Positions 627-25,411 of a stretch of DNA of 25,910 nt are shown here, piece by piece. The translations under genes were made by a program, and so were the position numbers. Numbering within the stretch: the first letter of the stretch is position 1; every line of letters begins with the position of its first letter. The notes beneath the pieces were generated by a model, which saw only the letters and a program-made list of their open reading frames with translations, was not told the origin of the DNA and did no database searches. Source of the stretch: a virus; IMG/VR virus record IMGVR_UViG_3300020392_000811, positions 1-25,910 of that record; one strand, written 5' to 3'.

Positions 627-634
627 ATAAATAT
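627..634 (-). promoter_or_regulatory. ATATTTAT boundary element
   Basis: On the minus strand the context reads GTTAATATTTATAATAAAG, 11 bases before the ATG of the 96-residue gene. The TAA stop of the upstream fibre gene (634-636) shares one base with the core. It is one of ten such elements at gene boundaries; promoter or translation-start function is inferred. Confidence 0.5.
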
Positions 635-3348
635 TAACTTTGTATTATTTGTGTAACTAAACTTGCGCTATATGTTAGAGTGTATAATTTGTTGATTCCA
701 TCAGAGCCAGTAACTGCTATGCTTAATGGATTTCCATCTGCAAATGACCCGGAGTATAATATGTTTGTTATTTGCTCGGTAGACCCAAAACTTTGTGTTA
801 CTTGTGTAACATTGCTTCCACTATAAACTATACTTGCTGTGGTAAATAAAGTACGTGTTGTACCTTGGTTAGTAATAGAAGCAGGAGTTATTATATCTCC
901 TGTTGTTAATGAAGCAGATATTACTGTTGTGTCTGTATGTCCAATTCTAAGTTGATTAGACATTGCAGCTTCTCCTAAACTACCAGATCCAATAATTATA
1001 TTACCACTACCATTCTGAATATTATATCCAGCATAATAACCTAATCCAATATTATCAGATCCGTCTCGTACTGTATATAATGAGCCAGCTCCTAATGTTG
1101 TATTTTTATGTCCGTCTCTTATAGAGTAAAGTGCAAAACTTCCTACGGCTACACCATAATCAGCATCTGCTCCACCAACGCCTTTTGCTGCTTGATTTCC
1201 TATATAAACATTTTGTGTACCATCTGTTTCATATCCTGCAGTATGACCTATTATTACATTTCTTGTATGTCCTGATCCTCCTGCGCCTTGGCCTGCATCT
1301 GCTCCTATTATTACATTAAACATTGCATTAGTTGAATGTAAAACTTGGCCTGCTCTTCGTCCTATTATTACATTTTCACCAGCTTGTGTAAGTGCTTTTC
1401 CTGCATCTGTTCCTATTAGTACATTACGATCTCCAATAGATAATGCTGATCCAGCATCCTTACCTAAAATTATATTATCTGTTGCTCCACTACCAAGTGA
1501 ACCTCCACTTCCTGATCCTATAACTACATTTGACGTTATACCTTTTCTTCCAGGAAATTCTACTGAACCAGATACTAATAATGAACCAGTTATAACTGCA
1601 TCACCGGTGAATGGAAATGGTGATATTCCTGATAATTGAGATCCATCTCCAATATATGTTCCAAATGATGCTGTTGAATTTGATTTACTACTAGATAATG
1701 ACCCCGAAATTATTATGTCTCCAGTATCTAATGAAGCAGATATTATTACGTTATCAGCATGTCCAATTCTAAGTTGTCTTTCTAATGCTGAAGCTCCTAA
1801 ACTACCAGATCCTATAATTATATTTGCGTTCCCGGTTAATATAGAACGACCGGCATTCATTCCAACTAATATATTTTCATCACCTGCACCAACACCATAC
1901 CCTGCTTCATACCCGATTGCTATGTTGTAATTGCTACCGCCACTATTACCACGCAATGCAGTCATACCAATAGCAACATTGTAATTACCTGTGCCAACTG
2001 CTCCTGCTTGATATCCTAAAAATACATTGTCTGTCCCACCTTGTGTTCCTGCTTGATCTCCAACTAATACAGATCTGTGTCCTACGGAACTAAAGCCAGC
2101 ATTTCTACCTATTGCTACATTGCTTCCTCCAGTACCAACACCATCACCAGCATTTGTACCTATAATAACATTGTTATCACCAGTTGTTAAATTTGATGCA
2201 GCATTATTACCTAACACAACATTATTGTCTGCTCCAGCTTGCATGGATGTACCAGCACTAGGACCTAACACAATGTTATCTGCATCTAATGTAAATGCAT
2301 TGAATGAGCCGGATATTGTTAATGATCCGGTTATAACTGCATCACCGGTAAATGGAAATGCCGGAGGATTATTTAATAAATGTGACGCTGTTACTGCAAA
2401 GCTAGCACTCTCTACTGACATTGAAGCAGTTTGAGAATTAGTTATGAAAGATGATAAATCTTGATCGCCAGTATTTGTTCCGCTTAAATTAGATGCTACG
2501 ATGGTTCCACTTGCACTTATATCGCCTGATGCTTCATATCTGCCAAATGATGCAGTTGAAGATGCACTACCTGATATGTTACCAGCTGGAAATTCTATAT
2601 TGTTTCCATCTATTATAAATTTATCATTAGTACCTAAAGTAGCGCTACTATAACCTCCTTTTGATATTCTAAAAGTATTACCAGTATCATCGGCACCAAA
2701 AACATATGCATAATTTTCATTACTATCACCGACTTTAACATACACATCTTTCCCACTACCCCCATTAATGGACTCTAATTCTAAAATAGGACCTGGTGAT
2801 GCTGATTGTCCTCTTAAATGTATTTTACTACCTGATATTAATAATGATCCTGTTATTTGAGTATCTGTATTGATTTGTAATCCTTTATCAGGAGATATAG
2901 ATGCAGTAACGCTACCACTTGCAATTCTAGATAAATTTAATCCAGTTATTCCTGATGCTGGTATATTGATTAAACTAGAACCATCTCCAACAAAACTTCC
3001 ACTAAATGTTCCTGTTCCTGATGAAGCAAAACTTGAGCTTAGTACTGACATTGAAGCAGTTTGAGAATTTGTTACAAATGACGCTGTTGCACTATTATTT
3101 ACGAAAGATGCTGTTGCTGAACTTGTTACAAAACCTAATGCAGTTATCTGACCCGATCCGGATACTGTGCCAGCTGGTATTGTTGGTGTGTTTAATGCGT
3201 GTGATGCTGTTATGGCAAAGCTAGCAGTTTCTGCATAACTAGAAGATAATTCATGAGTAATTTCATGTGATGCTGATATCGCAAAACTTGCAGATATATT
3301 ATACAACACGTTTTCTTGAAGTTGTCCAGGCCTTATTTGTCTTGCCAT
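634..3348 (-). CDS. Tail fibre with two duplicated YadA-head-like beta-roll modules (904 aa)
   Basis: A very long, low-complexity fibre protein rich in Ser, Gly, Ala, Thr and Ile. The N-terminus (MARQIRPGQLQENVLYNISA) leads into TASFAITASHA/TASFVTNSQTASM repeats. Two large modules follow (about residues 331-546 and 577-820). Each starts with FPFTGDAVITGSL, contains roughly ten NV-x-IG-x-x-AG repeats and ends with IIIGSGSLG, then LRIGH-x-D, VISASL and TGDII. The xVxIGxxAG pattern resembles the left-handed beta-roll head of YadA-type trimeric adhesins, so a trimeric host-binding fibre is likely. There is no S74 chaperone at its C-terminus. I prefer the ATG at 3346-3348 to an in-frame ATG nine bases upstream, because GGGAG lies 9 bases before it and it overlaps the upstream TAA by one base. 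It follows a gp15-like gene. Confidence 0.85.
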   Translation of the reverse strand: MARQIRPGQLQENVLYNISASFAISASHEITHELSSSYAETASFAITASHALNTPTIPAGTVSGSGQITALGFVTSSATASFVNNSATASFVTNSQTASMSVLSSSFASSGTGTFSGSFVGDGSSLINIPASGITGLNLSRIASGSVTASISPDKGLQINTDTQITGSLLISGSKIHLRGQSASPGPILELESINGGSGKDVYVKVGDSNENYAYVFGADDTGNTFRISKGGYSSATLGTNDKFIIDGNNIEFPAGNISGSASSTASFGRYEASGDISASGTIVASNLSGTNTGDQDLSSFITNSQTASMSVESASFAVTASHLLNNPPAFPFTGDAVITGSLTISGSFNAFTLDADNIVLGPSAGTSMQAGADNNVVLGNNAASNLTTGDNNVIIGTNAGDGVGTGGSNVAIGRNAGFSSVGHRSVLVGDQAGTQGGTDNVFLGYQAGAVGTGNYNVAIGMTALRGNSGGSNYNIAIGYEAGYGVGAGDENILVGMNAGRSILTGNANIIIGSGSLGASALERQLRIGHADNVIISASLDTGDIIISGSLSSSKSNSTASFGTYIGDGSQLSGISPFPFTGDAVITGSLLVSGSVEFPGRKGITSNVVIGSGSGGSLGSGATDNIILGKDAGSALSIGDRNVLIGTDAGKALTQAGENVIIGRRAGQVLHSTNAMFNVIIGADAGQGAGGSGHTRNVIIGHTAGYETDGTQNVYIGNQAAKGVGGADADYGVAVGSFALYSIRDGHKNTTLGAGSLYTVRDGSDNIGLGYYAGYNIQNGSGNIIIGSGSLGEAAMSNQLRIGHTDTTVISASLTTGDIITPASITNQGTTRTLFTTASIVYSGSNVTQVTQSFGSTEQITNILYSGSFADGNPLSIAVTGSDGINKLYTLTYSASLVTQIIQS
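1589..1619. repeat. Fibre module boundary repeat, copy 1
   Basis: A 31-base segment matching 2330-2360 at 30 of 31 positions. It encodes the FPFTGDAVIT strand that opens each beta-roll module, marking the join of an internal duplication in the fibre gene. Confidence 0.85.
2330..2360. repeat. Fibre module boundary repeat, copy 2
   Basis: Partner of 1589-1619 with one mismatch; opens the first beta-roll module of the fibre gene. Confidence 0.85.
2413..2439. repeat. Fibre NSQTASMSV repeat, copy 1
   Basis: A 27-base segment identical to 3043-3069, encoding NSQTASMSV in the stalk-like part of the fibre. The nucleotide identity, not just protein similarity, indicates recent duplication or gene conversion. 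Confidence 0.85.
3043..3069. repeat. Fibre NSQTASMSV repeat, copy 2
   Basis: Identical partner of 2413-2439. Confidence 0.85.
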
Positions 3349-5097: not shown

Positions 5098-5104
5098 ACC
5101 TCCT
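5098..5104 (-). promoter_or_regulatory. Strong ribosome binding site of the gp14-like gene
   Basis: AGGAGGT on the minus strand, five bases before the ATG at 5090-5092 and overlapping the TAG stop of the gp13-like gene. It is the closest match to a full Shine-Dalgarno sequence in the window. Confidence 0.75.
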
Positions 5105-6326: not shown

Positions 6327-6340
6327 TAATATCCTTTAAT

Positions 6341-7411: not shown

Positions 7412-9097
7412 TTAAAGAGTTTCCAATCCTTTCACGTATACTTTTCCGTAGAATTCTGGACGAACTACTTTTTTCGCGTAACGTGTCATGACACCTTTTC
7501 TTGGTGTGAAGTTTACTGGATCGTAAACTAATGGAGTCATGATGAGAGGAACATATGGAGAGAATACCGCACCTGTTTCTAGGAACTGTGCACCCCTGAA
7601 GCCCATTAATATAATGTTCTCTTTCATGTATGGATTTTTGTATACAGTGTATCTGTTATTGATTGCACCAATCTTTTGTACACCTGCTGCAAATTCCATT
7701 TTAGTTCCATCAGTGTCTGCAGCAAATCCAGGAATAGATTCTAGGATAGTTGCGACTGCCGGAGATGTAACTAAGAAGTTAGCACCACCACGCAATGTTT
7801 TCTGATGAATTTTATTTGAAACTTTCTGCAGTTTAGTACCAAGTGTTTGGAACCATCCACCTTGCGTGTTATAGAACCCGCCAGTAGTAGCAGACGTTTG
7901 TGTAAACGCATTTCCACTGTAAATTTCATTGTTTACTGCTGACCAATACTCAGTAGTTGGAGCAGAAGCAATCAACATGTCAAGAATCTCTAAATCAATC
8001 TCCATTGATACATACTCAGATAACATTGAAGTTAATTCTGCCTCAGCATCAATTGAGTGATAAGCGTTAAGGTCTTGCGCGAACTCAGGAGTCCATACAG
8101 CCTTTAACTTACGAGTCTTAGCAACGATTGGCTCAGACTGAAGTTCCAAGTTAACTTCTGGAATATCAATATCTGTACCGTCATTGATACCATTGCCGGC
8201 GCTAGCTGGGTTACCCTTAAATGGATCAGCATCTTCAAAGTCACCTCTTGTGATATCAGTAGGCTGTTTGCTATAGTTGAGTTTCAACCCACCTACAATA
8301 CCTTTAGCTTGATGAATATTTGCTGCTTCAGAAATTGCAACAACAAATGATGCAGTATAGTTAGCATCAATAGTTGAGAATGCTTGCACAGGAACAATTT
8401 CTGTAGATCCAGATACCAATGTAAATGATCTAACTGCTAATTTATCTGCGTCAGTTGGCACGTTAACAGTTAAGTTAAAGTAGGTGCTTGATACTGAAGT
8501 AAATGCAGAATCAAAATTTAATGATGCACTTGATGCTGCTTCTGCTGCTGCAGCTGAACCGGTGCTTACTGCAGTTGCTGCTAATGTTGCTGCAACAGTT
8601 GGAATAGAATATCCAAATCGACCAGCACCATAAAGACCACCTGAAGGATCACCTGATGTGTTAGTGACACCAAACATAGAGTCATCAGCTTCAGGAGTTC
8701 CAAATGGATGACCATTGTCTCCATCAACATCTGCATTGTCATCATCAAATCCTGGAACTGCTGTACCATATTTGAAGTCTAAATAAAATACTAGACCTGA
8801 TGGCAAGTTCATTGGTTGTACAGAAACAAATTCTTTAGCTGCAAATTCAGCAAAGATTCTTCTTACCAATGGAAGTGCTACACCAGCCCATTCTTCAGAA
8901 CCAGCTGCAGTACCTGTAGCAGATGATTCTTTTACTAGTTGTCTTGCTTGGTTTTCAAGCAATTGTGCCATTCCGGCTTTTTCAGTCTCACTAGAAAGAC
9001 CTTCTAATAGACCCGTTCTTTCCCATTTGTTAACGTGAGCTTTCGCTGCACTTCTTTGAGAATCGTTAGGATCTTGTAATAATGAATTAAGGCTCAT
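7412..9097 (-). CDS. 23: Major capsid protein gp23 (561 aa)
   Basis: The hexamer-forming shell protein of T4-like heads. The diagnostic block is EEWAGVALPLVRRIFAEFAAKEFVSVQPMNLPSGLVFYLDFKYG (residues about 68-111). Later come DIPEVNLELQSEPIVAKTRKLKAVWTPEFAQDLNAYHSIDAEAELTSMLSEYVSMEIDLEILD and a C-terminal FTPRKGVMTRYAKKVVRPEFYGKVYVKGLETL. The first about 60 residues form a charged helical pro-region as in T4, where gp21 removes the N-terminus; LLE at residues 30-32 and 46-48 fits the (L/I)-x-E cleavage rule, but the actual site is uncertain. A Ser/Ala-rich and beta-rich stretch at about 155-270 probably corresponds to the insertion domain. The start follows the gp22 stop by 13 bases with AAGGG upstream, and an intrinsic terminator follows the gene. 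Confidence 0.97.
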   Translation of the reverse strand: MSLNSLLQDPNDSQRSAAKAHVNKWERTGLLEGLSSETEKAGMAQLLENQARQLVKESSATGTAAGSEEWAGVALPLVRRIFAEFAAKEFVSVQPMNLPSGLVFYLDFKYGTAVPGFDDDNADVDGDNGHPFGTPEADDSMFGVTNTSGDPSGGLYGAGRFGYSIPTVAATLAATAVSTGSAAAAEAASSASLNFDSAFTSVSSTYFNLTVNVPTDADKLAVRSFTLVSGSTEIVPVQAFSTIDANYTASFVVAISEAANIHQAKGIVGGLKLNYSKQPTDITRGDFEDADPFKGNPASAGNGINDGTDIDIPEVNLELQSEPIVAKTRKLKAVWTPEFAQDLNAYHSIDAEAELTSMLSEYVSMEIDLEILDMLIASAPTTEYWSAVNNEIYSGNAFTQTSATTGGFYNTQGGWFQTLGTKLQKVSNKIHQKTLRGGANFLVTSPAVATILESIPGFAADTDGTKMEFAAGVQKIGAINNRYTVYKNPYMKENIILMGFRGAQFLETGAVFSPYVPLIMTPLVYDPVNFTPRKGVMTRYAKKVVRPEFYGKVYVKGLETL

Positions 9098-9110
9098 TTT
9101 CTTTTTTCCC

Positions 9111-10301
9111 TTATTTAATTAAACCCGCTAGTTTTTTCCAACGGTTGGCTTGTTCAAAGCCTTCAGTTAATACTTGTGTTGTTTCTTTGCTTGGAGCAGT
9201 TGATGCAACAGGTTTTGATGCCATTGATTTTGACTCTTTAACTACACGCTTTCCTGCCGTAGGCTTATGGAAAGATTCTGCTAAAGTTGTGAATACCAAT
9301 TTTGCTTCTCTTGTGTTACCCGCTCTGTCAAAGTTTTCAATTACTTTCATTTTTTGACCTTCGTTAAGATCAAAATTTCGGAACAATTTGTTTGTGTAAA
9401 GAAGTTTTGCATTTAAAAGATTAACTTCGTTGATGACTGATTTAAGATGAGACACAGTATCATAAGCTTCTTCAAGAGCTTCTTTTGCTTCGTTGCAATT
9501 AGATTCTTTTTTAGCGGCTTTCTTCATCTCTTCATCTTTCTTCATCTCTTCATCTTTCTTCATCTCTTCATCTTTCTTCATCTCTTCATCGTTCATGCCT
9601 CGCTTCTTTTCTGCAACAAGATCTTCTTCTGCTAAGATTGCTTCAATGAGTTCGTCGATTGATGAATTTTCATTAACGCGGAAGTTGTCTGCTCGATCGC
9701 CAATATAATCGGCTCCTCGTTTTTCAGCTGAATACATTTCATTTCGCATCATTTCTTCGTCGTTCATTTCTTCGTCAGCTATGTACATTTCGTTAGATTC
9801 TTCATCTGACATCATGCTGCCTCGCTTCTTTTCTGCAACTAGATCTTCTTCTAACTCTTTGATGATTTCTTCGATGCCCATTTCGTCACCCATGTCATCA
9901 CCATCCATAGCGTCACCCATGTCGTCCATTTCAGCATCCATGTCGTCCATTGGTTCATCCATGTCAGCTTCAGCGCCTGGTTTACTCATAATGTCACCAG
10001 TAAAGTCAATTTCACCGTCCATGTCAGTATCAATTTCGATATCACCAACATCCATTGGTTCACCTTCTGCGCCCATGTCGTCACCCATATCATCCATGGC
10101 CATTTCTCCGTCCATGTCATCCATTGGTTCATCCATAGCCATTTCATCATCTTCAAGCTCACCGATTAACTCAGTTTCGAGCATGCTTTTGATTCTTGGT
10201 TGAAACGCTTCTTGAAGAGCAATCTTTGCATTAGCCAACGCAGTTTCTTTAACAGCTTTAGCGTCCGCAATCGCTTCTTTTAGCAAATCTGATTTTGCCA
10301 T
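9111..10301 (-). CDS. 22: Prohead core scaffold protein gp22 (396 aa)
   Basis: The internal scaffold on which gp23 assembles, digested by the prohead protease afterwards. The N-terminus MAKSDLLKEAIADAKAVKE is helical. Residues about 50-175 are extremely rich in Asp, Glu and Met (DDMDGEMAMDDMGDDM type). A linker follows in which EEDLVAEKKRG occurs twice, then four exact DEEMKK repeats. The C-terminal third has the gp22-like block LNAKLLYTNKLFRNFDLNEGQKMKVIENFDRA and EAKLVFTTLAESF, ending in KKLAGLIK. The frame stays open 48 codons further upstream, but the ATG at 10299-10301 is chosen because a perfect AAGGAG lies seven bases before it, and the upstream extension would run through the AT-rich leader. 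The position directly before gp23 fits T4 order. Confidence 0.93.
   Translation of the reverse strand: MAKSDLLKEAIADAKAVKETALANAKIALQEAFQPRIKSMLETELIGELEDDEMAMDEPMDDMDGEMAMDDMGDDMGAEGEPMDVGDIEIDTDMDGEIDFTGDIMSKPGAEADMDEPMDDMDAEMDDMGDAMDGDDMGDEMGIEEIIKELEEDLVAEKKRGSMMSDEESNEMYIADEEMNDEEMMRNEMYSAEKRGADYIGDRADNFRVNENSSIDELIEAILAEEDLVAEKKRGMNDEEMKKDEEMKKDEEMKKDEEMKKAAKKESNCNEAKEALEEAYDTVSHLKSVINEVNLLNAKLLYTNKLFRNFDLNEGQKMKVIENFDRAGNTREAKLVFTTLAESFHKPTAGKRVVKESKSMASKPVASTAPSKETTQVLTEGFEQANRWKKLAGLIK
9519..9590. repeat. Four exact 18-bp tandem repeats in gp22
   Basis: The 18-base unit TTTCTTCATCTCTTCATC (plus strand) occurs four times without mismatch and encodes DEEMKK four times in the gp22 scaffold. 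Perfect nucleotide identity suggests a recent or slippage-prone expansion. Confidence 0.95.
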
Positions 10302-10308
10302 TTGTTTT

Positions 10309-10314
10309 CTCCTT
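10309..10314 (-). promoter_or_regulatory. Ribosome binding site deciding the gp22 start
   Basis: AAGGAG on the minus strand, seven bases before the ATG at 10299-10301. It fixes the gp22 start and excludes the 48-codon upstream extension of the frame. Confidence 0.85.
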
Positions 10315-10479: not shown

Positions 10480-10719
10480 TTAATCGTATTGATGCATATC
10501 TCTTATTTTCTGCATGTATTTTGCTTTGATAAGTTGTGCTCTACGCTTTACACTAGGTTTTGTAAACGTACGGTTTTCTTTTAAAGCGTCTAATGTTCCT
10601 AGTTGCTTGATTTTTCTTTTAAACGATCTCAATGCAAATGAAATGTCTCCGTCTACTACTGCTACTGCAGATGGTGTACCTGATACGATACTTTTGTGAT
10701 GTTTGTGTTTTTTACTCAT
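10480..10719 (-). CDS. rpsU: Phage-encoded ribosomal protein bS21 (79 aa)
   Basis: A small basic protein matching small-subunit ribosomal protein bS21. A His/Lys-rich start (MSKKHKHHKS) is followed by VAVVDGDISFALRSFKRKIKQLGTL (residues about 19-43), where bacterial bS21 has a V-x-x-x-x-ALRRFKR core, then FTKPSVKRRAQLIKAKYMQKIRD (52-74). The KPSV-x-x-RA-x-x-x-KA-x-Y-x-Q-x-x-RD pattern is typical of Bacteroidota bS21, including the Tyr at 68. bS21 sits on the 30S platform near the 3' end of 16S rRNA and affects mRNA selection; in Flavobacterium it helps hide the anti-Shine-Dalgarno sequence. Phage bS21 genes are known, for example in pelagiphages. I chose the ATG at 10717-10719, ten bases after the upstream stop, over a 41-residue-longer GTG start inside the preceding gene. 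There is no Shine-Dalgarno site. A terminator follows. Confidence 0.9.
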   Translation of the reverse strand: MSKKHKHHKSIVSGTPSAVAVVDGDISFALRSFKRKIKQLGTLDALKENRTFTKPSVKRRAQLIKAKYMQKIRDMHQYD

Positions 10720-10729
10720 ATAACTTGTT

Positions 10730-11200
10730 TTAAAATTTTCTGCTTGGGCGTCTTCTAGGATTATTACTTCTTGGAGCTTTAAATGCAAATTTACTAAGCT
10801 CTGGTAGTTGTGCAAAATATCCTTGAATCTTTTGTGATTCACTTCCTGGATCTTCTCCTACACGAAAGTAAAAATATCCTGTGCGACCTGATTTGGATTT
10901 TTCATGCTTGATAATAGTAAATCCTTTTTTAGTAGTCCAACGTTGTATTTCTTTGGCTACTGCCATTGCTTCTTGTGGGTCACGTAATTGATATATAACA
11001 TGTCCTGCATAGTCTGTTAAATTGTTTACTAGTTGAGCTTCGTCTATAAATTCTTCTGCAGTAAGTTCTTTTTTTGCTTTAGCTAGATCTTCCATATTTT
11101 TTGTTAGATCTGGAAGTACTGCATTTAATTCTGATGCTTCTGCAGACGAAATTTCATTCAACCCAAAAAAGTCTCGATACATTTTTTTAAACTTACTCAT
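10730..11200 (-). CDS. Unassigned late protein upstream of bS21 (156 aa)
   Basis: A soluble protein with a helical N-terminal half (MSKFKKMYRDFFGLNEISSAEASELNAVLPDLTKNMEDLAKAKKEL) and a compact alpha/beta C-terminal half: AGHVIYQLRDPQEAMAVAKEIQRW, TTKKGFTIIKHEKSKSGRTGYFYFRVG, then a very basic tail NNPRRRPSRKF. I do not recognise the family. It lies between the prohead protease group and bS21, so a role in the prohead core or late RNA/DNA binding is possible; the basic tail would suit nucleic acid contact, which is inference. I prefer the ATG at 11198-11200 over one two codons upstream because AAGAG then has seven-base spacing. The ATATTTAT element lies 19 bases before it. Confidence 0.75.
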   Translation of the reverse strand: MSKFKKMYRDFFGLNEISSAEASELNAVLPDLTKNMEDLAKAKKELTAEEFIDEAQLVNNLTDYAGHVIYQLRDPQEAMAVAKEIQRWTTKKGFTIIKHEKSKSGRTGYFYFRVGEDPGSESQKIQGYFAQLPELSKFAFKAPRSNNPRRRPSRKF

Positions 11201-11659: not shown

Positions 11660-12304
11660 TTATATCCTACATTTACCATCTTCACATAATATTGACGTGA
11701 TTAGGTTGTTAACTTTATCATATTTATTTGTTGTTTGTCGTTGAACCGATTCATTTATTCCAGCACTTTCAAATCTACCTTTTATTGGTCTTACATATGC
11801 TCCATGTGTTGATGGATTACTAACAAAGTCCCAACAAATCAATTCAAAATCTTCTTGAACCTCTACTGTGCCTTCGTTTCGGAGTTCTTTTACGCTGCCT
11901 AAGCCTCTGCTAGATATTCCCAATGTAATACCAGCTTCAAACAAAGACTTTAATATTTTACCAGACGGAGTATCTAAAACTTGTATTGTTCCTTTAAGAT
12001 CATCTCCTTCCCAAAATATTTTTAAAATGTTGTGAGACACATTGTTCAAGTTAACTACACTTGACTCTGGATGATCTAATTCTCCAAGAGCTCTGTTTTG
12101 ATCTATGTATTCTTTTTGATATCGTTGACATTCTCGCGCCAAAATATTTTTAGGATATACTCTTCCGTTTTGATTTTTAGCTCCCGCTCTTTGCAAAACT
12201 CCTTGAACTATCAATGCTCCCGGAACACCATATTTTGCTCCATGTGATTCGTTTATAGAACCAATAGGCTTAAATGGCATATATTCTACTAATAATTTTG
12301 ACAT
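11660..12304 (-). CDS. 21: Prohead core protease gp21 (214 aa)
   Basis: The serine-type protease that matures the T4-like head by cleaving scaffold and capsid proteins after (L/I)-x-E sites, and then itself. The expected blocks are present: GVLQRAGAKNQNGRVYP (about 35-51), the catalytic His in GELDHPE (His78), GTIQVLDTPSGK, the catalytic Ser in GITLGISSRGLGSV (Ser131 or Ser132), and the conserved DFVSNPSTHGAYV (159-171). Length matches T4 gp21 (212 residues). The C-terminal tail (ESVQRQTTNKYDKVNNLITSILCEDGKCRI) is probably the autocleaved segment, as in relatives. The start is the ATG at 12302-12304, preceded by AGGAG with six-base spacing that overlaps the end of the upstream gene. Confidence 0.95.
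   Translation of the reverse strand: MSKLLVEYMPFKPIGSINESHGAKYGVPGALIVQGVLQRAGAKNQNGRVYPKNILARECQRYQKEYIDQNRALGELDHPESSVVNLNNVSHNILKIFWEGDDLKGTIQVLDTPSGKILKSLFEAGITLGISSRGLGSVKELRNEGTVEVQEDFELICWDFVSNPSTHGAYVRPIKGRFESAGINESVQRQTTNKYDKVNNLITSILCEDGKCRI
11665..11668 (-). promoter_or_regulatory. Ribosome binding site deciding the start at 11658
   Basis: AGGA on the minus strand, six bases before the ATG at 11656-11658 and inside the last codons of gp21. It favours this ATG over a GTG nine codons upstream. Confidence 0.55.
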
Positions 12305-12305
12305 C

Positions 12306-12878
12306 TTACTCTCCTAATGATCTAACTCGCTCTGATATTTTAATTAATCGTTCTGATATTTTTCTTAATGCGTTATGCGTCCCACTACTAAAACCAGAAT
12401 GTGCTATTCCAGATTCAGTTTTTAATCTACCAGTATATTTAACAGTCTCTTCAATTTCTTTTAATTTTTTAGCTACTTCTCGAATAGCACTGTTAACAGT
12501 CTGTTTAGGATTTGAATTTGGTTTTCCTAAAGCAAAATCACGATATCCTTCTATAAGTTGTTCATACTTACGATCCATTGCTTCTGCAACGCCAGGATAT
12601 TTCATTTCCTTTTTTTCTTTTTTAGAAAATGAATATTTTGTAGGAACCGGAGCTACTCCTGCTGTAGTAGACATTTCATCTAACTCTTCTCCATTACATG
12701 GCACATGATCACATTTTTCATCTTTACCATCTCCATCATCATATTTACCTTTTGCTTCTGCTTTCACATCATCGCCTGGCTCATACCATATACCATCTCC
12801 ATCATTGTCCTGCCATCTTTTTTCTTTTTCATCTAGCGCTTGAAAATTTTCAACTATTTGTTCTAAGAATGATTTCAT
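12306..12878 (-). CDS. Putative prohead core protein with calcium-loop motif (190 aa)
   Basis: An acidic N-terminal third contains a canonical D-x-D-x-D-G loop (DNDGDGIWYEPGDDV, residues 24-38) and a weaker second one (DDGDGKDE, 47-54), with Cys56 and Cys61 nearby. This layout resembles calcium-binding loops of EF-hand or dockerin type; binding is not proven. A linker MSTTAGVAPVPTKYSFSKK (69-87) resembles segments seen in core proteins of T4-like marine phages. The C-terminal part is helical and basic (VNSAIREVAKKLKEIEETV, ALRKISERLIKISERVRSLGE). It overlaps the upstream 283-residue gene by four bases (ATGA), has AGGG before its ATG, and precedes gp21 by one base. A head-core role is inferred from position between gp20 and gp21, where T4 carries genes 67 and 68. 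Confidence 0.75.
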   Translation of the reverse strand: MKSFLEQIVENFQALDEKEKRWQDNDGDGIWYEPGDDVKAEAKGKYDDGDGKDEKCDHVPCNGEELDEMSTTAGVAPVPTKYSFSKKEKKEMKYPGVAEAMDRKYEQLIEGYRDFALGKPNSNPKQTVNSAIREVAKKLKEIEETVKYTGRLKTESGIAHSGFSSGTHNALRKISERLIKISERVRSLGE

Positions 12879-17229: not shown

Positions 17230-17609
17230 TAATTAATTGCTCCTACTATCAATTTACCAGTTAATACTGTAGTTAGTATGCCGCTACTAAACCAAATAAT
17301 TTTGTTGTTGTACCATTTAGGTTGTAACTTTTTTTGTTGTTTGACATATAAATCTATGTTTTCTTCAAGCAAATCTATTTGTTGTTGTTTGTATTGTAAC
17401 TGTAAACTATCTAGTCGTAATAATTCGTCTTGTTTTTCAATAACTGCTTCTTGTTGAGATATTAACGCATTGTTAACTGAATCTTGATAATATAATTCGT
17501 CTAATGTTTCTGATATATCATGTATTTGTTGTTCTGTAAAACAAGTATCAGTTACTGTTTGTCCGAATATAGTTATTGGAAATAGTAATATAAAAATTAA
17601 TTGTTTCAT
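17229..17609 (-). CDS. Secreted coiled-coil protein with C-terminal membrane anchor (126 aa)
   Basis: An N-terminal signal peptide (MKQLIFILLFPITIFGQ, cleavage probably near FGQ, a style common in Bacteroidota) is followed by a Gln/Leu/Asp-rich coiled coil (about residues 25-95: DISETLDELYYQ, QEAVIEKQDELLRLDSLQLQ, QIDLLEENIDLYVKQQKKL). A C-terminal hydrophobic segment (about 104-124: IIWFSSGILTTVLTGKLIVGAI) would anchor the protein. The predicted topology is a periplasmic coiled coil with a C-terminal inner-membrane helix. That resembles spanin-like lysis proteins, but there is no clear lipobox (Cys23 sits in DTC). Spanin, holin accessory or envelope remodelling are all possible; no family is recognised. 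It overlaps the upstream membrane gene by four bases (ATGA) and the terminase ATG by one base, so all three are translationally coupled. Confidence 0.75.
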   Translation of the reverse strand: MKQLIFILLFPITIFGQTVTDTCFTEQQIHDISETLDELYYQDSVNNALISQQEAVIEKQDELLRLDSLQLQYKQQQIDLLEENIDLYVKQQKKLQPKWYNNKIIWFSSGILTTVLTGKLIVGAIN

Positions 17610-17956: not shown

Positions 17957-18605
17957 TTTTTTCTCCTATAACGTGTTTATTTAATTTATTTAAAAAGTCT
18001 TTTTTGTAAGACTCGAATCCTTGTGTAACTTTTTCTTCAAATTCTTCTGGAGTCATTTGCGCTGCCCATGACTCAGTATCTCCTTTTCCGTTGATAACTA
18101 GTTTAGATGCTTTTGTGTATGCTTCTCGAAGCATTTCTACATCTTGCTCTGCTTTTTCTAACCAAGCCAATGCATTGGTTTCAATTCGCTTTCGAGCATA
18201 TTCTTCAAATTTTCCTTGTTTTTTTAATTCATGCTCCATGTCAATTACACAGTTAAAACACATACCGTGTATTGCTCGCATTTTTTTATTTAAATAATGA
18301 TTAGGATCTACGTCTGTGCATGTAGATTTACAATTTGGAAACAGTCTTAACTCTTCTCGAACTTCGCTCAATACTTCAGAATTTTTTGGCTTGCGTGTGC
18401 GAAAACCATCGTGTTGTTCTACAACGGTTATGTTTCCATTTGCGTCTACAGTTTCCCACTTATCACCAATTTCATGATGTTCATTGCGTTTTTGTGTTGC
18501 ATCAGCATCACTAAATCCTACTGTTTTTTTGGTTTGAAATTTATGTGTGCCGTCAAGCATTTGCTCGAGGGCTTTGATGTTTTGTAACTTGTTTGTTTTT
18601 GCCAT
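17934..18605 (-). CDS. Unassigned protein with four-cysteine zinc-ribbon-like motif (223 aa)
   Basis: A hydrophilic protein starting MAKTNKLQNIKALEQMLDGTHKFQTKKTVGF. The middle has four cysteines in a C-x3-C-x19-C-x2-C arrangement (Cys92, 96, 116, 119; the second pair within HGMCFNCVIDMEHEL), consistent with a structural zinc site. A long helical C-terminal region follows (YARKRIETNALAWLEKAEQDVEMLREAYTKASKLV, then MTPEEFEEKVTQGFESYKKDFLNKLNKHV). I do not recognise a named family. It comes five bases after the 346-residue gene and overlaps the next gene by 23 bases. As the last soluble protein before gp17 apart from two membrane proteins, it could occupy the place of a small terminase or a head-completion factor, but nothing in the sequence proves this. 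No Shine-Dalgarno site is visible. Confidence 0.75.
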   Translation of the reverse strand: MAKTNKLQNIKALEQMLDGTHKFQTKKTVGFSDADATQKRNEHHEIGDKWETVDANGNITVVEQHDGFRTRKPKNSEVLSEVREELRLFPNCKSTCTDVDPNHYLNKKMRAIHGMCFNCVIDMEHELKKQGKFEEYARKRIETNALAWLEKAEQDVEMLREAYTKASKLVINGKGDTESWAAQMTPEEFEEKVTQGFESYKKDFLNKLNKHVIGEKNENLEQD

Positions 18606-19672: not shown

Positions 19673-19680
19673 ATAAATAT
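19673..19680 (-). promoter_or_regulatory. ATATTTAT boundary element
   Basis: Minus-strand context GGTAATATTTATATAAAAT, 21 bases before the ATG at 19651. The TAA stop of the upstream fusion gene (19680-19682) shares one base with the core. Confidence 0.5.
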
Positions 19681-22142
19681 TACCTTGCGTATTTTAACAC
19701 TCCTAGTATCTGATTCACTGGAGCAAACGATCCTGTTAGCTTGTATGTGTTACCTCCATATGTAAACACTATGCCTTCAATTGGAACTATAGTATCAAAG
19801 CCACCCATTCGTTCTATTTTTTTTAATTGAGTTTCTAATTTTTGAAGTGTATCAGGATTATCTGATGTTTGCAAATCTTTAATTAACAACATTAAATCTT
19901 TTTTGATTTGTTTAACTGCTTTGTCTGGACTAGCTGCTAAAAAGTTTTTTATGTTTTTTAACACCACCGCGCCAAGTTTTAAAAATATAGATTCAAATGG
20001 TTCTATATTTTGTTTTTGATATGCTCGAAAATCTTTTTTATCAAATGCTGAAGTCCACTCTGCAAATGATTCATTTTCAATCATTTTTACAACGTTGTTT
20101 ATTCTAGTAGACTTATCATTAAATGCCCAACGATTAGTTAGTATTTCTAAAACATTTTCTGGTATAGCATAATCTAATTGATATGCTTTTTCTCGAACAA
20201 CATCTTTCCACCATGCTCTGTGATATTCAGATACTCGGTCTGTTTCTTTGAGTCCAAATTGATCTTTTAAACTGTCTATTTCAGCAAAGAATGCTGATTG
20301 TTGATCTTCAAAATCTTCTATACGACCCAATTTTAATTTGTTAGGCGGAATAAATGAAAATGTATTTTGCATATGTGCATTAGCATCTTGTATTACTTGT
20401 TGAAGCATGGTGCCACCGGTTAAGTCAGTTTCAATTACTCTTCCTTTTTCATCATATTCAACTAAGTTATGAAATTGAAGCACTGCTTGTTCATATGCAA
20501 TAACATTGGTAGTAGCAGGATATATAATTTCCATGTTTGCAAACACTTTACCGTTTTTAAATATACGCATAAGCGTTTCCGGAGACAATTTGCTTAATGC
20601 TGCGGTCAAATCTTCTGCTGTTGCTCGAAAAGCGTCGACTACTAGTTTGTATCCTTCTGCTCCTTTTACTCCGTTTGCTTCTACTGATTTTTGATATTTT
20701 GCTTCAAACTCTGCAACAATTTCGTCTGGTGTAAGTGGATTGATTCTGGTTTTAATACCACGAGCAAAACCAGGCCTACCGTTTTTCCAAGTTACTTGAA
20801 TGTTTTGTCCGTCTGTCTTTTCAGTAACAGCTTCTTCCATGTCAAGACGTCCTTCTAATGCTCTTGACACTATTTCTTTCATGTCATTGAAAGTTAACCC
20901 ATGAGAATCATAAGGATGATTCATGTGACCTGCGGCACCACCTTCTGTCAATACGTTTTCTATTGTGTATATTCTATCAGACGGATTATTTGATCTCCAA
21001 GGACGTCGTTGCGCTTTAACTGTTCTCGGTATCAATTTAATTTGTCCTTTACTTTGATCAAAACGTAATTGAAACGGCATATGAATAGGAACGTCAAATT
21101 GATAGTCTGATGTTACTGCCGATGGATTTCGTTGTTGAAATTGTTGAACTATTTCTTCGCCATATTCAGACGATAAATCTGAAAATAAATTTTCTAAATC
21201 GTCTAATGTAATTGTTCCTTCATTTCTAGGATCATTTAAGCGATCTATAAAATGTGTAGTATATCCTTGAAAGTCTACGTCTATTCCGTAACGTTTAAAA
21301 AATCTGTCTATGGTTGGTTCTATTGATCTTAATTCATCGCGTGTAATATAATTTTCATATAATGGTGCACCGAACACAGTTTTACCAAAATTAGCAAAAT
21401 CATATACAAATTCTTCTCCACGACTTCGATCTAAATGTTTTCTTAATTTTTTTATTTTTTTGTCGTGAGACTTGGCCATTTTAGTAGTTTGATAGCCTTC
21501 TGCTACTTCGTCTACATCTTCTGCTAATTGATTGCTCCACCATGATTTGCTGAACATTGATTCTTGTACACCGGTAAGCATTTGCCATATGTTTTTTATA
21601 ACAGCTGGTTTTGCTCCTGGGTATGATGCTGCAAATGTTTCATAGTCGTTGTTAGCAATTGCTTGTCGCACAGTGCTAGCAGAAATAGGTTCACCAGTGC
21701 TATATGCTAATGGATCTACATCGATTTCTAACGGATTTACTTCTACGCCGGCAGGTATTTTTCTGCCTTTCTTGTCTCCGACTGTTTTGTATTTTTCTAC
21801 GTTTCCGGCAAAGCTCAATGTTCTGGCATAATCATCTCCTTTTTTAGAAGCTGCCATGGCATATGTTCCTTGATCATCTTCTGGTAGTGCAAATAAAAAT
21901 TCATACGCAGCCATTATGGGACTGTTAAAATCTGTAGCACGAAGTTCAATTTTAGAATTATTGTTGATTAATCTGAATATTTCATCACTATCAGCACGAC
22001 TTACGCCGTCTCGTTCTTTTGGTCCTATGAGCATGATTACTCGTTCTACGTTAGAAGAATTTGCATAGCGTTGAGCTAATGCTAAATGGGCACCGGTGAT
22101 TGGTTTGAACCCGCCTGGAAAAAGTACTGTAGTTTTATTCAT
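19680..22142 (-). CDS. Fusion of NMNAT-like nucleotidyltransferase and polynucleotide-ligase-like adenylation domain (820 aa)
   Basis: Residues 1-190 have features of the NMNAT/cytidylyltransferase superfamily: TVLFPGGFKPITGAHLALAQRY (5-26), with T-G-A-H where H-x-G-H is usual, and ISASTVRQAI (153-162), matching the family's IS-x-x-x-x-R motif. Residues about 245-395 form a middle region I cannot name (THFIDRLNDPRNEGTITLDDLENLF). From about 399 the protein looks like an ATP-dependent DNA/RNA ligase or mRNA-capping type adenylation domain: EGGAAGHMNHPYD, motif I EKTDG (441-445, Lys442 the predicted AMP-bound residue), ARGIKTRI, motif III-like FANMEII (534-540), motif IV PIEGIVFTY (787-795) and motif V YKLTGSFAPVNQ (800-811). 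About 250 residues separate motifs III and IV, implying a large helical insertion. It lies among structural genes. Activities are predicted only. The ATG is five bases after an ATATTTAT element, with no Shine-Dalgarno site. Confidence 0.75.
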   Translation of the reverse strand: MNKTTVLFPGGFKPITGAHLALAQRYANSSNVERVIMLIGPKERDGVSRADSDEIFRLINNNSKIELRATDFNSPIMAAYEFLFALPEDDQGTYAMAASKKGDDYARTLSFAGNVEKYKTVGDKKGRKIPAGVEVNPLEIDVDPLAYSTGEPISASTVRQAIANNDYETFAASYPGAKPAVIKNIWQMLTGVQESMFSKSWWSNQLAEDVDEVAEGYQTTKMAKSHDKKIKKLRKHLDRSRGEEFVYDFANFGKTVFGAPLYENYITRDELRSIEPTIDRFFKRYGIDVDFQGYTTHFIDRLNDPRNEGTITLDDLENLFSDLSSEYGEEIVQQFQQRNPSAVTSDYQFDVPIHMPFQLRFDQSKGQIKLIPRTVKAQRRPWRSNNPSDRIYTIENVLTEGGAAGHMNHPYDSHGLTFNDMKEIVSRALEGRLDMEEAVTEKTDGQNIQVTWKNGRPGFARGIKTRINPLTPDEIVAEFEAKYQKSVEANGVKGAEGYKLVVDAFRATAEDLTAALSKLSPETLMRIFKNGKVFANMEIIYPATTNVIAYEQAVLQFHNLVEYDEKGRVIETDLTGGTMLQQVIQDANAHMQNTFSFIPPNKLKLGRIEDFEDQQSAFFAEIDSLKDQFGLKETDRVSEYHRAWWKDVVREKAYQLDYAIPENVLEILTNRWAFNDKSTRINNVVKMIENESFAEWTSAFDKKDFRAYQKQNIEPFESIFLKLGAVVLKNIKNFLAASPDKAVKQIKKDLMLLIKDLQTSDNPDTLQKLETQLKKIERMGGFDTIVPIEGIVFTYGGNTYKLTGSFAPVNQILGVLKYAR

Positions 22143-22158: not shown

Positions 22159-25100
22159 TTATTTGTTTTCTAGTTGTTTTAAACGTGATTCTAAATCTTG
22201 TATCTTTCCAACTAGTGCAGCAATTATAGCTCTATCATCAATATCTATAGGTACTTGTTTATCGCTTAACATTTCTTGATTTTTTTGAAATCCGTTGTCA
22301 TCATACGCCCAATCTGGACCATATGTTGCAAATTTAGGCGATACATCTGCAGTTTCTTCTGCAATAAAACTTAAAAATTGTTTGCCATTATCTTTTGGAT
22401 TTTTCATTTCAAAATATCTAGGCTGTAATGCTAAAATGCTATCATAAACTTTTGAAGGCGGTGACGTAATGTTTTTCTTTGTTTTTTGAGTCGATGTTGC
22501 ATATGTTACTTCTTTTGTACTACTATCATATTTTAAAAAATGACTACCAACTGCATTATCAATGCCTGGTAAATATATTTCTCTATCTTCTGTTAATACA
22601 AATCCAACTCCGCTATCAAAAGGAGGAAAACTAGCGTCTAAGTTAAAACTACGAGCAATTTGTAATGAGTTTGTGTCTGTTTCAACACCAATTGTATATG
22701 GAACAGTTTCTGTTCCTTGTAATGAAATTTTTGGGTCTAGACTACTAGATAGACGTATAATTCCTCCATCACTATCACCATCACCTACACGTAAATTTCT
22801 ACGAACAAGAAATCCGTTGGTTGACAGTCCACTAATGTTTTCCGATCCGCCAATTGGGTACATTGTCTGAACAGCGTTGGGGATCGCGCCTCTTATTGCT
22901 AATATTAAAATTGAACCATTAGTAACGTCTATTTGGTCATATTCATTTGGGGCACCTGTCCCTTTTGCTAAAAATCCATTAAGAATTTTTGTGTTACTTC
23001 CATTATTTTCAATACGTATATCTGTTGATTCTGCCCCCGATCCATAATCTGGTAACGCAACTTTAAAAATAGGTCGTACTAATGAACAAGCAATATTTAC
23101 CGAGAGTCCAATTTCTCCCCCTTGTGAGCCATCGAGTATTAAATTATATGCTGGAGTATTAGATGAATCATCTGCAGTAACGTTATCAAAATATGAACTT
23201 GAGTTATGTTTTGTTATTTCGATAGTATTATTGAGTATTGCATTAGCTAATGCAGTACCTGAAAATAATGCATTACTCGCAGTAACATTTCCTTCAGGCG
23301 ATAACACAAAATTACTAGATGATATTTCTATGTTACCATTACTACCACTTATAAATACAGTATTAGGATCTCCTAGAAAGAAATTTTGTGTTGCGATGTA
23401 TAGTTCATTGTCTGTAGTAGAATATCTAAAATAAGTATCATTATTTAAGTATAATTCTAATCCAACTCCACTGTAATCGGCATTACCTTTTGTTTTTTGT
23501 CCTTTTAATGCACTTCCGCTAAAAAGCAAAAATCCAGGAAACCCAGATTCAAATCCTTGATATCCTAATGATCTTATAAATCCAGTTCCGCCGTCTCCCG
23601 TTATAGCTACTCCACTTTCTATACTATCTGCTACATACAAAGATCCAGTAAGCATTGAAAAATCACCATCTACATAACGATTACCACCTTCCCAATCTAG
23701 ATTATCGACAAATGTTACTTGTTTACTTGCAACACCATCTATGTTATAATATTCTAATTTAAATGATATTTGATTGTCTATTTTATGTGTAGTTTCAATA
23801 AATGTTTTTAATCTGGTATAGTTAGGGGTATATCCAATATCATTGTCTGTAGTTGTTCTTACGTCAGCAATTTGCCAGACTCCGCTTTCTACTACAAATA
23901 TAATAGTTCCGTGTCCGTTATTATCAGATTCAAATTCAATTACTTGATCGTCAAATCTTTGCGACTCGCCAGTAGCTCGAAGTTCTCCTACTCGTTTACC
24001 TAATGTTACCGGTAAGTCTTGATTTAACACATCAGTTGCATCAAAATTAAAAGCACTACCAGACAAGTATACGCCTAGTACAGGATCATTGTTTCCACTA
24101 ACACTGCTACGAGTACCTAATGCATCAATAGTAACTTTGTATGAACTAGTTGCAATAAATACACCTTTATATGCATCTTTAGTTTGAAAAGTTAAAACGT
24201 GATTTTTTGCAGTTATATCTGTCGAGCTACCAATTAAAACTGCTTGATCTAATGATGAAGAAATAGATGCAGTTGTAGGTGCAGTGGCTTCGGTTGGTCC
24301 TAAATACGTATGTGCTTCCCAATATGTATCAATTATGTCTTGAGATGTAAAAATACCAACGCTAACGTCAGGTAACAATGAAGATGTACTAGGAACAAAT
24401 ATTTCTGTTTCTTCTAATTCAACATCATTAACCAGTTCAAATGCCCCAACGGTACCGTTATTGTTAGTGTATACTTTTACACGATTAACATCACCAGTTG
24501 CTGGTTCTAATCCGTTAACTTGTATATAAGCATATGATTGTGAATTTTCAGTTGCTATATATGTTGGAGTAGCTTCATATGTCAATGAATAAGTAGAAGG
24601 CTCGAAAGCGTTAAATGTATGTGGAAATATACTTTGGCTACTAAACACCGTATACTCTTTGTCTAATAATGCCGTAGTTGGAGTTAATATCTTTTTTATC
24701 GTAGACACGTAAGGCGTGGTAACAACCGTATACTCCGGTATAGGAGAAGGATTAACAGGTGCGGCTACTGTTATAGTTCCTGTTTTCATGTCAGAGATAA
24801 ATTCGCCTCCAGTTAATTCAACAACTGGTTGTCCATTCTGTGTAATTAATTTTACTTTACCAGTATTATATGTTGGAAACTGTACAGTTGCATATTGTCT
24901 ATCTAATTGAACTCCTACTTGTTCTGAAATAGTTACTTCGGGTAATTTATCAAATATAATTTCTGAATTATTAGAAACATTAGGATTAACTGGTACGGAT
25001 CTTGACCAGCGCACGTTTACTTTGCCTTGATATTCTAATGGAGGCGTTGCGCCTTCTACTACTGATGCTTCTGCTACTAATGTTACTGTGCAATCTCCTG

Positions 25101-25392
25101 GCGATGTATCATCGTAAATATAAATAGCAATAACACGACTTTTATCTTCTTCAATAAAATTTATTACTTCTGAATATATTGGATTTCCATTGTAATCTAA
25201 AACTTCTATTCCGAGTGCGCCTCCAACTTTTAAATTTGTAGGATGTCCACGCAGTTTAAATAAATTTTTACCTGCAGTTAATTTTGTAGGAAATTCTGAT
25301 ATTTGAAAATAATCCGGAGATGTTAATGAAGGATCTTCATATAAAACCGGGATAAATTCTAAACCTTTATATACAGCTTCTTTACGTTGCAT
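22159..25392 (-). CDS. Tail fibre/structural protein with C-terminal peptidase S74 chaperone (1077 aa)
   Basis: A large beta-rich virion protein. The N-terminus (EFPTKLTAGKNLFKLRGHPTNLKVGGALGIEVLDYNGNPIYSEVINFIEEDKSRVIAIYIYDDTSPGDCTVTLVAEA, about 33-110) looks like a conserved attachment domain seen in uncultured T4-like phages. A long beta region follows, with Ser/Gly-rich fibre repeats (GSLYVADSIESG, LSSSLDPKISLQGT). The last 111 residues form a peptidase S74 (endosialidase-type) intramolecular chaperone: the predicted Ser-Lys dyad is Ser967 and Lys972 in TSTQKTKKNI, with downstream LQPRYFEMKN, FLSFIAEE and a terminal coiled coil IQDLESRLKQLENK. Autocleavage would release this part after trimerisation. 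The frame could start at a TTG two codons earlier; I prefer the ATG at 25390-25392. There is no Shine-Dalgarno site, and the ATATTTAT element is 19 bases upstream. Confidence 0.85.
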   Translation of the reverse strand: MQRKEAVYKGLEFIPVLYEDPSLTSPDYFQISEFPTKLTAGKNLFKLRGHPTNLKVGGALGIEVLDYNGNPIYSEVINFIEEDKSRVIAIYIYDDTSPGDCTVTLVAEASVVEGATPPLEYQGKVNVRWSRSVPVNPNVSNNSEIIFDKLPEVTISEQVGVQLDRQYATVQFPTYNTGKVKLITQNGQPVVELTGGEFISDMKTGTITVAAPVNPSPIPEYTVVTTPYVSTIKKILTPTTALLDKEYTVFSSQSIFPHTFNAFEPSTYSLTYEATPTYIATENSQSYAYIQVNGLEPATGDVNRVKVYTNNNGTVGAFELVNDVELEETEIFVPSTSSLLPDVSVGIFTSQDIIDTYWEAHTYLGPTEATAPTTASISSSLDQAVLIGSSTDITAKNHVLTFQTKDAYKGVFIATSSYKVTIDALGTRSSVSGNNDPVLGVYLSGSAFNFDATDVLNQDLPVTLGKRVGELRATGESQRFDDQVIEFESDNNGHGTIIFVVESGVWQIADVRTTTDNDIGYTPNYTRLKTFIETTHKIDNQISFKLEYYNIDGVASKQVTFVDNLDWEGGNRYVDGDFSMLTGSLYVADSIESGVAITGDGGTGFIRSLGYQGFESGFPGFLLFSGSALKGQKTKGNADYSGVGLELYLNNDTYFRYSTTDNELYIATQNFFLGDPNTVFISGSNGNIEISSSNFVLSPEGNVTASNALFSGTALANAILNNTIEITKHNSSSYFDNVTADDSSNTPAYNLILDGSQGGEIGLSVNIACSLVRPIFKVALPDYGSGAESTDIRIENNGSNTKILNGFLAKGTGAPNEYDQIDVTNGSILILAIRGAIPNAVQTMYPIGGSENISGLSTNGFLVRRNLRVGDGDSDGGIIRLSSSLDPKISLQGTETVPYTIGVETDTNSLQIARSFNLDASFPPFDSGVGFVLTEDREIYLPGIDNAVGSHFLKYDSSTKEVTYATSTQKTKKNITSPPSKVYDSILALQPRYFEMKNPKDNGKQFLSFIAEETADVSPKFATYGPDWAYDDNGFQKNQEMLSDKQVPIDIDDRAIIAALVGKIQDLESRLKQLENK

Positions 25393-25411
25393 TGACAAGT
25401 ATACTTTTTAT

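Follow-up and report, generated by a model that had tools for sequence, protein, structure and literature searches.

The window, the whole stretch of 25,910 nucleotides analysed here, is a T4-like structural cluster on the minus strand, with the gene order terminase, portal, protease, two small genes, bS21, scaffold, gp23 capsid, PhoH, neck and tail genes. It contains a T4-like head module, consisting of the gp23 capsid, the gp20 portal, the S77 protease and a T4-type terminase. The features surrounding the bS21 gene are the following:

11660-12304, minus strand: prohead protease (Peptidase_S77, Pfam)
10480-10719, minus strand: bS21 gene, with the ATG at 10719 and the stop ending at 10480, 79 aa
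10434-10459, minus strand: terminator-like hairpin directly 3′ of bS21 (a stem of 11 pairs followed by a T run)
9111-10301, minus strand: scaffold-like gene (assigned from its position and its homology to immuto gp067)
7412-9097, minus strand: major capsid protein gp23 (PF07068, 4.4e-75)

The original prediction placed bS21 just before the scaffold and capsid genes, a position that suggests late timing, and overlooked the hairpin. The adjacency holds; bS21 as the first gene of a capsid operon was rejected because the hairpin (10459-10434) stands between them. Since this terminator-like hairpin lies directly 3′ of the gene, bS21 seems, from the layout of the cluster, to close the packaging/protease unit, with scaffold-capsid opening a new one.

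As a tblastn search of phage records with the bS21 protein gave matches in two metagenomic huge phages only, cultured relatives were sought via the capsid and the terminase. The closest are Flavobacterium phage immuto (54/53% capsid/terminase identity) and Microcystis phage Mel-JY01 (55/57%). A search of the immuto genome for S21 found none, and 395 Bacteroidota genomes, searched for capsid genes of such phages as a clue to the host, yielded no match. Elsewhere in the window, 19680-22142 (minus strand) encodes an 820-aa protein with a nucleotidyltransferase-like start (FPGGFKPITGAHLALAQRY) and no significant Pfam match; in Mel-JY01, a gene annotated as cytidylyltransferase-like lies upstream of the terminase. 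Two long proteins at 634-3348 and 22159-25398 (both minus strand), again with no Pfam match, are probably tail fibres, and the first of them is rich in repeated NVIIGxxAG-like units.

We then examined the bS21 product (MSKKHKHHKSIVSG...KPSVKRRAQLIKAKYMQKIRDMHQYD, 79 aa). It passes the Pfam family PF01165 (Ribosomal_S21; E 2.5e-11, 43.6 bits versus a cut-off of 27), and 14 relatives in viral contigs, at 76-96% identity, all keep the frame, the ATG and an SD-less leader, confirming that the predicted reading frame, for which the original prediction named no strand, is real and lies on the minus strand. The closest solved structure is the bS21 of F. johnsoniae (7jil, E 1.3e-8), and in the alignment phage Tyr68 corresponds to Fjo Tyr54. 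With Tyr at position 54 and a KPSV..R.. C-terminal half, the phage protein carries the Bacteroidia-type signature, and Tyr68 is kept across the window's bS21 family, with His in two alignment rows. When 84,980 genomes of bacteria and archaea were scanned by pattern, the sole match was a Flavobacteriaceae MAG rpsU (50% across 59 residues), whose C-terminal half (FTKPSVKRRAQLIKAEYIQ) is nearly that of the phage (FTKPSVKRRAQLIKAKYMQ) and whose first helix differs. The predicted Bacteroidota type with Tyr68 is thus supported, as judged by residue signature and best matches, the ~50 residues shared with pelagiphages being too few for a tree. The phage protein also has a basic N-terminal extension of ~16 residues, in which the KKHKHHK run varies (KKQKQH in relatives). 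An AF2 model (pLDDT 70, pTM 0.32) places helices at 26-40, 42-49 and 57-78 and predicts, with low confidence, an unstructured extension; a fold search with this low-confidence model gave no significant match and three weak ones, all mitoribosomal entries.

We next scored Shine-Dalgarno (SD) sites as the duplex energy with CACCUCCUUU over the 19 nt ending 4 nt before the start, with a cut-off of -4.9 kcal/mol; cut-offs were chosen after a two-peaked energy distribution was seen. Starts were set by alignment or by first ATG, and the resulting noise should be equal in both groups; because first-ATG starts misplace some genes, the main tests used starts aligned to orthologues. About 9 of the 23 window genes reach -4.9 kcal/mol, and the leaders that matter here are:

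17963-17967, minus strand: SD AGGAG of the small gene g17606 (window leader)
17240-17244, minus strand: SD AGGAG of the terminase large subunit, TerL (4/4 family leaders)
12311-12315, minus strand: SD AGGAG of the prohead protease (14/14 distinct family leaders)
10720-10741, minus strand: A/T-rich bS21 leader (AGAAAATTTTAAAACAAGTTAT) with no SD, conserved across the family
10309-10314, minus strand: SD AAGGAG of the scaffold, -8.2 kcal/mol (5/5 distinct family leaders)
9107-9111, minus strand: weak SD AGGGA of the capsid, -5.4 kcal/mol (15/15 distinct family leaders)
6332-6337, minus strand: SD AAAGGA of the neck gene (9/9 distinct family leaders)
5098-5104, minus strand: SD AGGAGGT of g4571, -11.6 kcal/mol, the strongest of the window (10/11 family leaders)

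The claim of strong AGGAG/AGGAGGT sites at many late genes is therefore correct for five genes (g17606, TerL, protease, scaffold and g4571) and too broad for the rest: the sites are weaker at the capsid, the neck and others, and the portal, g7026 and bS21 have none. The same three genes lack an SD throughout the family (portal 0/11, g7026 0/11, bS21 0/17 leaders). None of the immuto orthologues has an SD.

The bS21 leader of the window has an energy of ~0 kcal/mol, a feature that the original prediction overlooked. An SD was found in 0/59 distinct phage bS21 leaders (Mel-JY01 group excluded), whereas every capsid leader from that clade (50/50) has one. The extended SD typical of Bacteroidia rpsU, through which the host gene is autoregulated in F. 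johnsoniae (McNutt et al. 2023, PMC9976891), is absent before phage bS21. The median for 30 Bacteroidota rpsU leaders was -15.7 kcal/mol with the extended anti-SD, in a sample that favours high Pfam scores, includes many non-Bacteroidia and was measured over a longer stretch. Hence the phage gene, which shares the predicted bS21 fold, the Tyr54 equivalent and the C-terminal half with F. johnsoniae bS21 (PMC9976891) but differs in its N-terminal extension and SD-less leader, would escape the autoregulation acting on host rpsU, and its message would be readable by SD-blind ribosomes.

To compare relatives, phages were gathered by capsid or bS21 protein similarity, i.e., blind to their leaders; among the matches listed, the slot could be read in 116 distinct phages. 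Among these, the presence of bS21 and of a capsid SD was concordant in 116/116 (53 with both, 63 with neither and none mixed). Capsid-leader energies among the matches listed ranged from -4.9 to -10.7 kcal/mol in bS21 carriers and from -3.9 to +2.9 kcal/mol in non-carriers; the fraction at or below -4.9 was 1.00 before and 0.13 after the carriers' leaders were shuffled. Motif and ATG are a canonical 5-11 nt apart. The capsid tree requires five changes of each trait, all in step, at least three of them forced by well-supported branches, and the protease and PhoH trees are likewise concordant with four changes each. Four to five changes do not suffice for significance in a sign test; even so, the fair comparison is by these tree counts, since Fisher p-values ignore kinship. 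An S21 gene was sought in 13 non-carrier records (up to 183 kb) and was absent from 13/13, and no divergent copy was found in the non-carrier clades nested among carriers. Protease leaders agreed with the bS21 state in 90/98 phages among the matches listed, with eight discordant. Together with the enrichment of SDs at late genes described below, the capsid concordance supports the predicted tie of bS21 to SD-bearing late genes, and does so far more strongly than a single window would allow.

Several groups depart from the simple pattern. One non-carrier clade (L183, L193, L240, L252 and L262) keeps AAATTTAAGGAGAA (AAGGAG) before the scaffold, with SD-less capsid and protease genes; this motif could be a relic, another motif or the mark of one gene read by bS21-depleted ribosomes. 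The scaffold leader was consequently dropped as a second SD marker. A subclade of carriers with Arg at the Tyr54-type position (L146, L150, L153, L177, L180, L185, L186, L190, L195 and L201) has capsid genes with an SD and an SD-less bS21 gene. In the bS21 phages of the L095-L116 type, which have no extension, SD use was not above that of shuffles in the four contigs sampled (G227, G228, G229 and G231), which implies that bS21 alone is insufficient. The distant L117, L118 and L122 have another S21 type (KKCGILDEV, no Tyr), capsid SDs of -10.7 kcal/mol and an SD at the S21 gene itself, and are probably phages of SD-using hosts.

We then looked at how SDs are distributed between early (replication/nucleotide) and late (structural) genes, the genes of long contigs being sorted by homology to immuto with chaperonins excluded. 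In bS21-carrying genomes, SDs were found at 6/57 early and 61/123 late genes (p 3e-10, Fisher, ignoring kinship), while non-carriers showed no difference (1/75 early, 5/93 late). The four large genomes G213-G216 had SDs at 8% of early and 59% of late genes, and the four readable early leaders of the window's own family are all SD-less. Roughly half of the carriers' late genes lack an SD, and in the carrier G212 SDs are scarce among late genes other than capsid and scaffold. The groES/groEL genes of the carriers G213 and G214 have SDs, in this respect resembling late genes, and the chaperonin genes of non-carriers do not. As T4, whose host uses SDs, has them at 14/21 early genes, the SD-less early genes of carriers point to an SD-blind host ribosome. 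From their leaders, carriers look as if they meet an SD-blind ribosome early and an SD-reading one late.

The same comparison bears on the possibility that the contrast merely mirrors the hosts, with carriers growing on SD-using bacteria and non-carriers on SD-blind Flavobacteriia. The hosts of the carriers are known only by inference, except for Mel-JY01, whose record names Microcystis, and the Bacteroidia Tyr is missing in some carrier subclades. The Mel-JY01 RpsU (PP395634; L018 10184-10411) occupies the same slot in a related structural cluster with a 55% identical capsid; unlike the window protein, it has no Tyr and a shorter N-terminus, its own gene has an SD, and the early genes have SD-like leaders. 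Early and late medians there are -4.2 and -5.2, a difference that is not significant with six early genes only. (The Mel-JY01 capsid is closest to those of Bacteroidota phages, though the record names a Microcystis host.) However, a host difference predicts early-gene SDs at the T4 level rather than in one in ten genes, leaves the SD-less bS21 gene amid SD-bearing neighbours unexplained, and sits poorly with the Bacteroidia signature of the window protein and its Flavobacteriaceae best match. We consider this explanation unlikely, though it fares best among the alternatives.

The reading that we favour, with a probability of about 0.55 and built on sequence comparisons, is that phage bS21 would replace host bS21 on the 30S subunit and thereby switch which mRNAs are read. 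In uninfected Bacteroidia, the 16S anti-SD is hidden in a pocket of bS21, bS18 and bS6, as in F. johnsoniae, where these proteins hold the 16S tail (PMC9976891), and ribosomes start on SD-less, A-rich leaders. Such unmodified host ribosomes would translate the mostly SD-less replication genes and the SD-less phage bS21. During infection by this T4-like phage, presumably of a Bacteroidota host, the phage protein would then displace the host's copy on the 30S; a phage bS21 is known to enter E. coli ribosomes (PMC6375957). Ribosomes with phage bS21 would pair the SD with the freed anti-SD, so that capsid, scaffold, protease, neck and baseplate mRNAs, a class that has SDs only in the carriers of this clade, would be favoured. 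We give about even odds to the full two-step switch, in which SD-less mRNAs would yield a modified bS21 and regained SD reading, silenced in the host lineage, would open a private class of late viral messages. An exchange for an anti-SD-freeing bS21 would account for the occurrence of SDs only with bS21, for their position at late genes and for the SD-less bS21 gene.

The release of the anti-SD is the weakest step of this exchange. In F. johnsoniae, Y54A or truncated bS21 raises the translation of strong-SD mRNAs three- to five-fold in vitro (PMC9976891), and the Arg at the Tyr position in L146, L150, L153, L185 and kin agrees with such a release. The window family keeps the Tyr, and release there would need the extension or other contacts. 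The correlation in the L095-L116 type, which lacks both the extension and SD use, points to the extension as the releasing element. Taken alone, the conserved Tyr68, at the position that stacks against the 16S tail, would predict that the anti-SD stays sequestered, which is how Chen 2022 interprets it (PMC9723584), and this residue and the SD-free bS21 phages of the L095-L116 group are the main objections to our proposal.

Tyr68 and the conserved C-terminal half also favour a plainer replacement, in which a host-like phage bS21 leaves the anti-SD hidden and keeps ribosomes replete for SD-less mRNAs while host rpsU is shut, the SDs having another cause. Ribosomes without bS21 are poorer on SD-less mRNA (PMC9976891), and Chen 2022 sees its phage bS21 as essentially host-like (PMC9723584). 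This leaves unexplained both the confinement of late-gene SDs to the bS21 carriers of this clade and the SD-using subclades with Arg at the Tyr position, and we regard it as somewhat more doubtful than a difference in hosts. Least probable of all is that another phage factor, e.g., a protease acting on host bS21, frees the anti-SD with phage bS21 as a linked companion: bS21-depleted ribosomes favour SD mRNAs, McNutt 2023 speculates on such products (PMC9976891) and four further genes occur in 4/5 carriers and 0/5 non-carriers among partial long contigs, but when the gene content of G213 was compared with 10 other long genomes, several of them partial contigs, bS21 alone was in 5/5 carriers and 0/5 non-carriers, in groups that bS21 itself defines.

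Parts of this picture have been described before, in work that the original prediction did not cite. Chen 2022 (PMC9723584) had already placed bS21 of Bacteroidetes phages close to structural genes, described its Tyr and late expression, and proposed that it selects phage transcripts; the myophage protein of that study is likewise of Bacteroidetes type, with an aromatic residue at Tyr54, and lies beside terminase, portal, protease and capsid. There, bS21 is on the strand opposite to the structural genes, whereas here, as the last gene before a terminator-like hairpin, it is co-oriented with them, an arrangement shared by every relative having both. No SD comparison is reported in that study (PMC9723584). 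The bS21 of pelagiphage HTVC008M (Mizuno et al. 2019, PMC6375957), also phage-borne and the one that enters E. coli ribosomes, is of alphaproteobacterial type and was absent from the tblastn matches of the window bS21 in cultured phages. The rpS21 of huge phages also has a basic N-terminal extension (Al-Shayeb et al. 2020, PMC7162821), and those authors linked SD scarcity to rpS1, not rpS21. What is new here is the link of phage bS21 carriage to SD sites; in the main texts of the openly readable literature searched, we found no report of a bS21-SD association or of an SD-less phage bS21 gene.

The preferred exchange of host for phage bS21 bears on a general question. Ribosomal protein bS21 is by far the commonest ribosomal protein carried by phages, and to our knowledge no feature that lets phage mRNAs benefit from phage bS21 has been established. 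One concrete candidate is the SD at late genes, which as a class have it only in the bS21 carriers of this clade and which contrast with the SD-less bS21 gene and most replication genes. If true, this would offer a clear example from nature of virus-made specialised ribosomes, and it could provide an orthogonal translation tool for Bacteroidota.
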